NCBI GenBank assembly: GCA_029288035.1
Contig: JARFPZ010000112.1
Coordinates: 1 to 34,729 of the forward strand
Length of the DNA stretch: 34,729 nt
From: Desulfosarcina sp.
GTDB taxonomy: Bacteria; Desulfobacterota; Desulfobacteria; Desulfobacterales; JAFDCJ01
Reading direction: 5' to 3'
In this document: piece after piece, positions 8,802-9,351 of the stretch
How positions within the stretch are numbered: position 1 is the stretch's first letter
Layout of the letters: the number at the start of each line of letters is the position of its first letter
Notes under the pieces: model-generated
Told to the model about the DNA's origin: nothing
Seen by the model: the letters and a program-made list of their open reading frames with translations, nothing else
The model's database searches: none
Made by a program: the position numbers and the translations under genes

Positions 8802-8837
8802 AAAAAAAGAGCAGCGTCAATTTTAGACTCTGCTCTT
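8802..8837 (-). terminator. Strong terminator ending the candidate ncRNA
   Basis: An 8-bp perfect stem (8830-8837 with 8807-8814) continues after one mismatch with GTC/GAC. On the minus strand the stem leads straight into a run of seven Ts. The nearest annotated minus-strand gene upstream stops at 9352, more than 500 bases away, so the terminator implies another transcript between 8838 and 9200. Confidence 0.75.
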
Positions 8838-9158
8838 CAGACGATTCTCCTGGAATCCATTAATTTAAAATTCCAAGATTATGCTCAGCTCGTTTGAGCC
8901 GTCCCTCAAGTTGATTGAGTGGGGTGTCAACCGAAGCTGTCCGCGATCGGTATGCACTGCCGGACAGCACATACCAGGAGTCATACAGCTTATGCGTCTC
9001 AGACCCCATATTATGTTGAAAAGGCTACCCTAAATGCCGTTGTTCTCGTGTGGTATCTCCTCAATTTGGATTTGGGAAGTCCGTCAGAAAAGATGCACGC
9101 ACATCCGAGAAGCCATTTTTCTAACTTAACAAATTCGGACCCTGTTTGTTTTCTGTTA
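8802..9158 (-). ncRNA. Candidate structured non-coding RNA, family unknown
   Basis: On the minus strand a nested fold is visible: outer stem 9003-9007 with 8921-8925 (GGGGT/ACCCC), middle stem 8985-8991 with 8934-8940 (AAGCTGT/ACAGCTT, perfect), and inner hairpin 8965-8975 with 8949-8959 (11 bp, 5-base loop). Two pairs of the inner hairpin are G-U on the minus strand but would be A-C mismatches on the plus strand, so the structure favours minus-strand transcription. A GATTC/GAATC hairpin follows near 8845-8859, then the terminator. A promoter lies at 9165-9193, giving an RNA of about 355 bases. There is no long ORF on this strand here. I checked for tmRNA, RNase P and SRP signatures and did not find them; 6S RNA cannot be excluded. 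Confidence 0.45.
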
Positions 9159-9164
9159 ATACAT

Positions 9165-9193
9165 ATAACAACATATTACAAATTTTGTGCCAA
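9165..9193 (-). promoter_or_regulatory. Candidate promoter of the ncRNA
   Basis: Minus-strand TTGGCA (9193-9188), exact 17-bp spacer, TGTTAT (9170-9165) fits sigma-70. The same bases also resemble a sigma-54 element, TGGCAC-N5-TTGTA (9192-9177), but with GT in place of the nearly invariant -12 GC. It is embedded in a very AT-rich tract. Confidence 0.4.
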
Positions 9194-9351
9194 AATTTAT
9201 ATTTTATAGAATTATATTAAATTACAATTAGTTAAACGGTTAATTAGTATCATCACATTGTCCCTTACTCAACAAAACCGTCAATTTTTCGACTCCTAAG
9301 TCGAGAATCTTATCAAGATCGGTGCGAACATCGATAGGTTATCGGAATGCA

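Follow-up and report, generated by a model that had tools for sequence, protein, structure and literature searches.

The Qrr small RNAs of Vibrio are encoded in multiple copies, depend on sigma-54 and on an enhancer protein, and carry their own terminators. In the sulfate reducer Desulfovibrio vulgaris, four non-coding RNAs (ncRNAs) are under sigma-54 promoters, each with its own enhancer-binding protein (PMC4641369). Conserved RNA structures known from comparative genomics, some with copies near flagella-type genes, include Termite-flg RNA (RF01729) and the other leader motifs that Weinberg et al. described in 2010 (PMC2864571).

The locus analyzed here lies in a 34,729-nt stretch of Desulfosarcina sp. 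(contig JARFPZ010000112.1 of assembly GCA_029288035.1), hereafter called the window. We propose, at a probability of roughly 0.6, that it encodes a free-standing structured regulatory RNA of ~365 nt, which belongs to a multi-copy family, is controlled by sigma-54 and an enhancer-binding protein, and acts in trans via a binding loop. Compared by description only, it shares with the D. vulgaris RNAs the sulfate-reducing host, the organization as ncRNA genes and the sigma-54 promoters with enhancer-binding proteins, but those belong to the Desulfovibrionales, and no convincing match to the core-hairpin family was obtained in a named Desulfovibrio. With Qrr it has in common the multiple copies, the sigma-54/enhancer-protein signals and the own terminator; it differs in its long core hairpin with an invariant internal loop and in its absence from Rfam, and no conserved single-stranded pairing seed was seen. 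Like Termite-flg RNA and the other leader motifs, it is a structured RNA found by comparative genomics with some copies near flagella-type genes, whereas the family is mostly free-standing and gave no cmscan match to RF01729 (the Desulfotalea-1 motif, PMC2864571, has no Rfam entry and thus lies outside the Rfam-based comparison of novelty). As a hairpin RNA that could bind a global regulator it also recalls the sequestering RNAs 6S and CsrB/RsmZ, from which it is set apart by the lack of an Rfam match and of a conserved GGA array, and by several copies with sigma-54 promoters. Neither Rfam nor the literature searched contained the RNA family, the loop or the modular architecture; the kind of RNA is already known, because sigma-54 control of ncRNAs in sulfate reducers has a precedent in D. 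vulgaris (PMC4641369).

A structured RNA in a gene-poor gap

A sequence-only reading of the window had placed a candidate RNA in a gene-poor gap of 800 bp, and such a gap (~800 bp) was confirmed; it is bounded by a nagZ-like gene (8547) and by the minus-strand ORF that comes next. For 8802-9193 on the minus strand, a fold of -119.5 kcal/mol was obtained, which is more stable than its dinucleotide shuffles (z = -4.2); for the plus strand the difference is smaller (z = -2.7). The predicted RNA from this gap is folded and does not code for protein. The predicted transcript runs on the minus strand from a probable start near 9166 to 8802, so that its length is now put at ~365 nt instead of ~355 bases. 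The promoter-like site noticed earlier is indeed present at the end of the interval and conserved in homologues, but its type is sigma-54, not sigma-70. The strong terminator was found as described, and the two G-U pairs of the 11-bp hairpin are A-C mismatches on the plus strand, as expected if this hairpin forms only on the minus strand. The features are listed in Table 1.

Table 1. Predicted features of the RNA locus in the window.
Feature	Position	Strand	Remark
Enhancer-like site (UAS) TGACGGTTTTGTTGA	9269..9283	-	right half degenerate; ~90 bp before the -24 box
IHF-like AT-rich box TTTAACTAATTGTAATTTA	9212..9240	-	between enhancer-like site and promoter
Sigma-54-type -24/-12 promoter TTGGCACAAAATTTGTA	9177..9193	-	38/98 copies vs 1% of control windows
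Core hairpin (motif 1), 98 nt	9020..9117	-	covariance model R1 and covariation
Second hairpin GGUAUGUGCUG-UCCGG-CAGUGCAUACC	8949..8975	-	the 11-bp hairpin of the sequence-only reading
Third element M2, hairpin with conserved internal loop GAC(U/A)CC...GACGGCUC	8883..8943	-	covariance model R2
Fourth hairpin UCUUGGAAUUU...GGAUUCCAGGA	8848..8878	-	MFE fold; comparable hairpins elsewhere
Intrinsic terminator, stem and 7-U tail, GAAGAGCAGAGTCTAAAATTGACGCTGCTCTTTTTTT	8802..8838	-	terminators after 56/97 copies

No known RNA class had been recognized at this place, and the covariance comparison with Rfam 15 agrees: for the window and 20 homologous loci there was no relevant match at the gathering threshold or at E values up to 1-5, the best model at this place being a snoRNA model far below threshold. 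Literature searches on RNAs of Desulfobacterales gave no description of the core-hairpin family. The proposal of a novel structured minus-strand RNA with its own promoter and terminator is therefore supported by homologues, by the missing Rfam match and by compensatory changes, on which the sequence-only reading had made its candidate depend and which are present in two alignments. We hold it with very high confidence to be a real conserved structured RNA; the promoter and terminator make its transcription as predicted highly probable.

Distribution of the RNA family

When the own genome and 57 relatives were searched at the DNA level, the stretch 9114-9021 (minus strand) recurred at several further loci of the own genome as well as in 19 relatives. 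The covariance model R1 (100 positions, 24 pairs) detected eight convincing copies and one marginal copy in the own genome; counted among the eight is one (at C81) whose score is just 29.8 bits but which directly adjoins an M0 element (see below). Within the order, 104 of the 291 genomes sampled matched R1, and the RNA is multicopy there (up to 14 copies in one other genome); across the phylum, R1 matched 16 of 395 sampled genomes, in a few other families. All 31 R1 matches among the pattern-selected named genomes tested were from Desulfobacteraceae, Desulfobacterales or ‘Deltaproteobacteria’; they include the Olavius Delta 1 symbiont, which belongs to the same genus as the window, and the convincing named matches were all Desulfobacterota. 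Those pattern matches from other phyla that were tested failed the R1 model, and none of nine pattern matches in viral contigs was convincing by the model (best 17.9 bits), so no link to phages is indicated. Two loci considered as members (L089, L099) were set aside as probably false or decayed (low score, core bases lost). Tandem copies of the core occur at L034/L056 and at L153.

Judged from these matches, the window RNA represents a multi-copy family that is spread over Desulfobacterales and a few neighboring families. An RNA class with several copies each in about one third of the sampled genomes, yet missing from Rfam, would add a regulatory layer to a major group of marine sulfate reducers that drives carbon and sulfur cycling.

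Structure and covariation of the core hairpin

In the window copy, the core comprises the helices P1 (GGCUUCUC/GGGUAGCC), P2 (AUGU[G]CGU/ACGGCAU) and P3 (UUUUC/GAGAA), a variable tip and the invariant, asymmetric internal loop GCAUC/CA; it scored 93.9 bits against R1 (E 8e-31), the window being part of the training set. Aligned homologues have in common CUUCUCGGAUGUGCGUGCAUCUUUUC...GAGAAYAACGGCAUUNNGGGAAG, and their flanks change yet stay complementary (AAAACUUC/GAAGUUUU, GGCUUC/GAAGCC, GUCUUC/GAAGAC). In a first alignment, made with MAFFT from 29 sequences and not adjusted to the structure, 90% of the cells pair, and cells with changes on both sides numbered 40 versus 11.5 in shuffles and at most 22 with the partners slid. 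Among 81 distinct model-aligned copies the corresponding numbers were 116, 32.3 and at most 46, with the qualification that this alignment leans towards the model and that the shuffle and slide controls remove relatedness only partly. Helix 2 was paired in 98% of the cells of the latter alignment, and the outer stem alone showed several pair types at its variable positions. RNAalifold returned little or no structure on the A1-like and A5 alignments because of alignment shifts; in its place, individual folds were used together with a structure set by hand.

Invariant within the core are its inner helix (AUGY[G]CGU/ACGGCAU) and its asymmetric loop (GCAUC/YA), an arrangement that looks typical of a binding site and not of a spacer. 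We regard this loop (CGU-GCAUC-UU / AA-YA-ACG) as a putative site for a protein or a small molecule. The same features bear on the possibility that the copies are redundant, Qrr-like sigma-54-dependent small RNAs which pair with mRNAs, perhaps with Hfq. The control logic is alike (multiple copies, sigma-54, an enhancer protein, an own terminator), but the invariant bases form part of a paired hairpin, only about five of them being unpaired, and the linkers vary by eye, with no long conserved single-stranded seed seen there; we consider base pairing of this type an unlikely, if reasonable, alternative to a trans-acting RNA with a binding loop.

Sigma-54 promoter and enhancer-like site

The -24/-12 element of the window (TTGGCAC-AAAAT-TTGTA) is conserved in the homologues, a sigma-70 scan found nothing at the place of the promoter, and a gene for RpoN is present in the genome. 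A -24/-12 box within 160 nt upstream was found in 38 of 98 distinct copies versus 1.0% of control windows (mostly coding and not matched in A+T); with this pattern, the other 60 copies gave no sigma-54 box. TGACG lies 45-125 bp before the -24 box in 23 of the 38 sigma-54-type copies (7.6% of control windows), and the full palindrome TGAC-N7-GTCA in 12 of the 38 (0.6% of controls), mostly at -88 to -93; several copies have a second TGAC 21-22 bp further upstream. The full palindrome is found in paralogues of the window copy. The joint pattern of palindrome, 64-84 nt and -24/-12 element gave 27 sites in 20 genomes and none in the reversed control. Between the two, 40-42 bp upstream of -24, ten of the 38 copies have the box TAACTATTTGAA (TAAC(N)TTTGAA-type; 0.16 expected in shuffles), which looks like an IHF site; the box of the window is a variant that misses the strict pattern.

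These signals suggest how the RNA may be made and used. An enhancer-binding protein on a TGAC-N7-GTCA-type site would activate sigma-54 RNA polymerase on the minus strand, IHF would probably bend the DNA between enhancer-like site and promoter, and the intrinsic terminator would end the transcript; several copies may then act jointly in trans as regulatory or sequestering RNAs, in the service of a sigma-54 programme tied to the cell surface, motility or c-di-GMP. Our confidence in this mechanism is moderate, whereas the genomes compared show directly the family, a hairpin with compensatory changes, signals for promoter, enhancer-like site and terminator, a modular architecture and no dependence on the strand of the next gene. 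The constant spacing of enhancer-like site and promoter, the modules and the invariant loop open the activator, the partner of the loop and the RNA targets to direct testing.

The same enhancer-like site and sigma-54 promoter stand before genes for a small Cys-containing protein of ~80 aa (HNFDFNIGxLVKSPCK...) at six loci from several genomes, and such a gene may share its regulator with the RNA. The RNA-type layout also precedes a gene for a ~200-aa protein (...ALExxAFxRGLPExG...) at three loci.

Terminators and orientation of the next gene

Terminators were found within 350 nt downstream of 56 of 97 copies (2.3 in shuffles) and in 6 of 97 upstream regions; a separate, simpler scan missed the terminator of the window. 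Of 89 next genes, 48 lie on the same strand as the RNA and 41 on the opposite one. With terminators present and the next gene on either strand alike, most copies appear to be free-standing RNA genes.

This argues against a cis-acting riboswitch or leader, in which the hairpin would sense a ligand and control the adjacent downstream gene by attenuation or translation. Such a leader would suit the conserved loops within varying stems, which are aptamer-like, the existence of tandem copies, and those copies that immediately precede a gene and are separated from its start codon by a terminator (FlgC-like genes at L037, L049 and L050). However, beside the 41 opposite-strand cases, the downstream genes are unrelated, no consistent 5' position is kept, and the terminators usually stand as hairpins of their own after the core, without overlapping P1; from the window copy to the next gene the distance is 470 nt and includes a terminator. 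As a general explanation we therefore find cis control improbable, and perhaps it applies to the FlgC-like subset. A mobile or repeat-derived palindrome with no RNA function would explain the many scattered copies per genome, but hardly the compensatory changes, the fixed promoter/enhancer spacing and the terminators, and the leading neighbor families include no transposase-type genes and the viral contigs no convincing match; we give it almost no weight against a free-standing regulatory RNA.

Gene neighborhood and the link to motility

Copies of the window type follow mltG and are followed by nagZ (the window, L048 and L160) or by a PAS-GGDEF-EAL gene (seven copies), while others precede FlgC-like, PilZ or CheD genes or follow fliW. 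Among the neighbors were GGDEF/EAL proteins (7 of 65), FlgC-like proteins (6), PilZ (2), FliW (2) and also CheW/CheD, a signal that stems partly from one syntenic place (mltG - RNA - GGDEF). Of 104 carriers 69 had FliM, and of 187 non-carriers 90 had it; the odds ratio is 2.1 (p = 0.003, kinship ignored). This correlation is weak, so motility is not the whole story and the link is at most partial; a strictly flagellar function was rejected on the same ground.

The neighborhood also touches on the idea of a CsrA (RsmA) sponge like CsrB/RsmZ, which would counter the control of motility by CsrA-FliW. Two copies adjoin fliW (L068, L073), and GGAUGU in the core motif resembles the CsrA site, but the position of the GGA is variable (GAA, AAA, GGG, UAA and AUG occur), eight GGA in 373 nt are near chance, and many genomes that carry the family have no FliM, which leaves the sponge very improbable next to a sigma-54-controlled RNA with a binding loop of its own. 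Short FlgC-like rod proteins (~117 aa) are encoded just downstream of the core at seven loci, several with a terminator-like hairpin between.

Modular build of the RNAs

In the window the core is followed by the GGUAUGU hairpin, M2, a further hairpin and the terminator, and comparable layouts were found at eight loci in other families. GGUAUGU...ACAUACC-like hairpins occupy the same place at L048, L072 and L258, with looser forms at four more loci, and a counterpart of the fourth hairpin stands in its place at five. M2 of the window scored 46 bits against the model R2 (E 6.7e-10; the window belongs to the training set), and 12 M2 sequences fold alike with changing outer stems. R2 gave 21 matches in 18 chosen genomes, ten of them just downstream of a core and the rest with no scored core. 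In two genomes (G174 at L266, G005 at L291; a copy before a GGDEF-type gene), the sigma-54 promoter, the enhancer-like site, M2 and the terminator are kept, but an intact core is missing.

M0 (model R3) is a separate structured element of ~93 nt (UGCCACCCAGCUUCAACACC...AAACCAUGYGAYGGC...GCCUCCAANGGUUA...GGUGGCA) with 21 matches, 18 of which abut the 5' side of the core with a gap of 0-6 nt (e.g., L246, L240, L228, L244 and L252). No Rfam match was found in the M0 copies tested, and M0 is possibly a second RNA domain. The arrangements of M0 and M2 around the core indicate that the family is modular, an aspect absent from the sequence-only reading. Whether the RNAs form a large undescribed class, in which M0, core, M2 and a loosely defined M3 would be interchangeable per transcript, up to 14 copies per genome would occur, many under one enhancer-protein/sigma-54 switch, and the core loop would recognize a ligand or protein, we consider an evenly balanced question.

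Among the M2 copies with no scored core, several have terminators and some the same sigma-54/enhancer layout. M3, a third downstream element (~CCNUGUWGGAUNGUUAACNNUC..CCUAACCUU), was seen at six loci in copies that lack M2.
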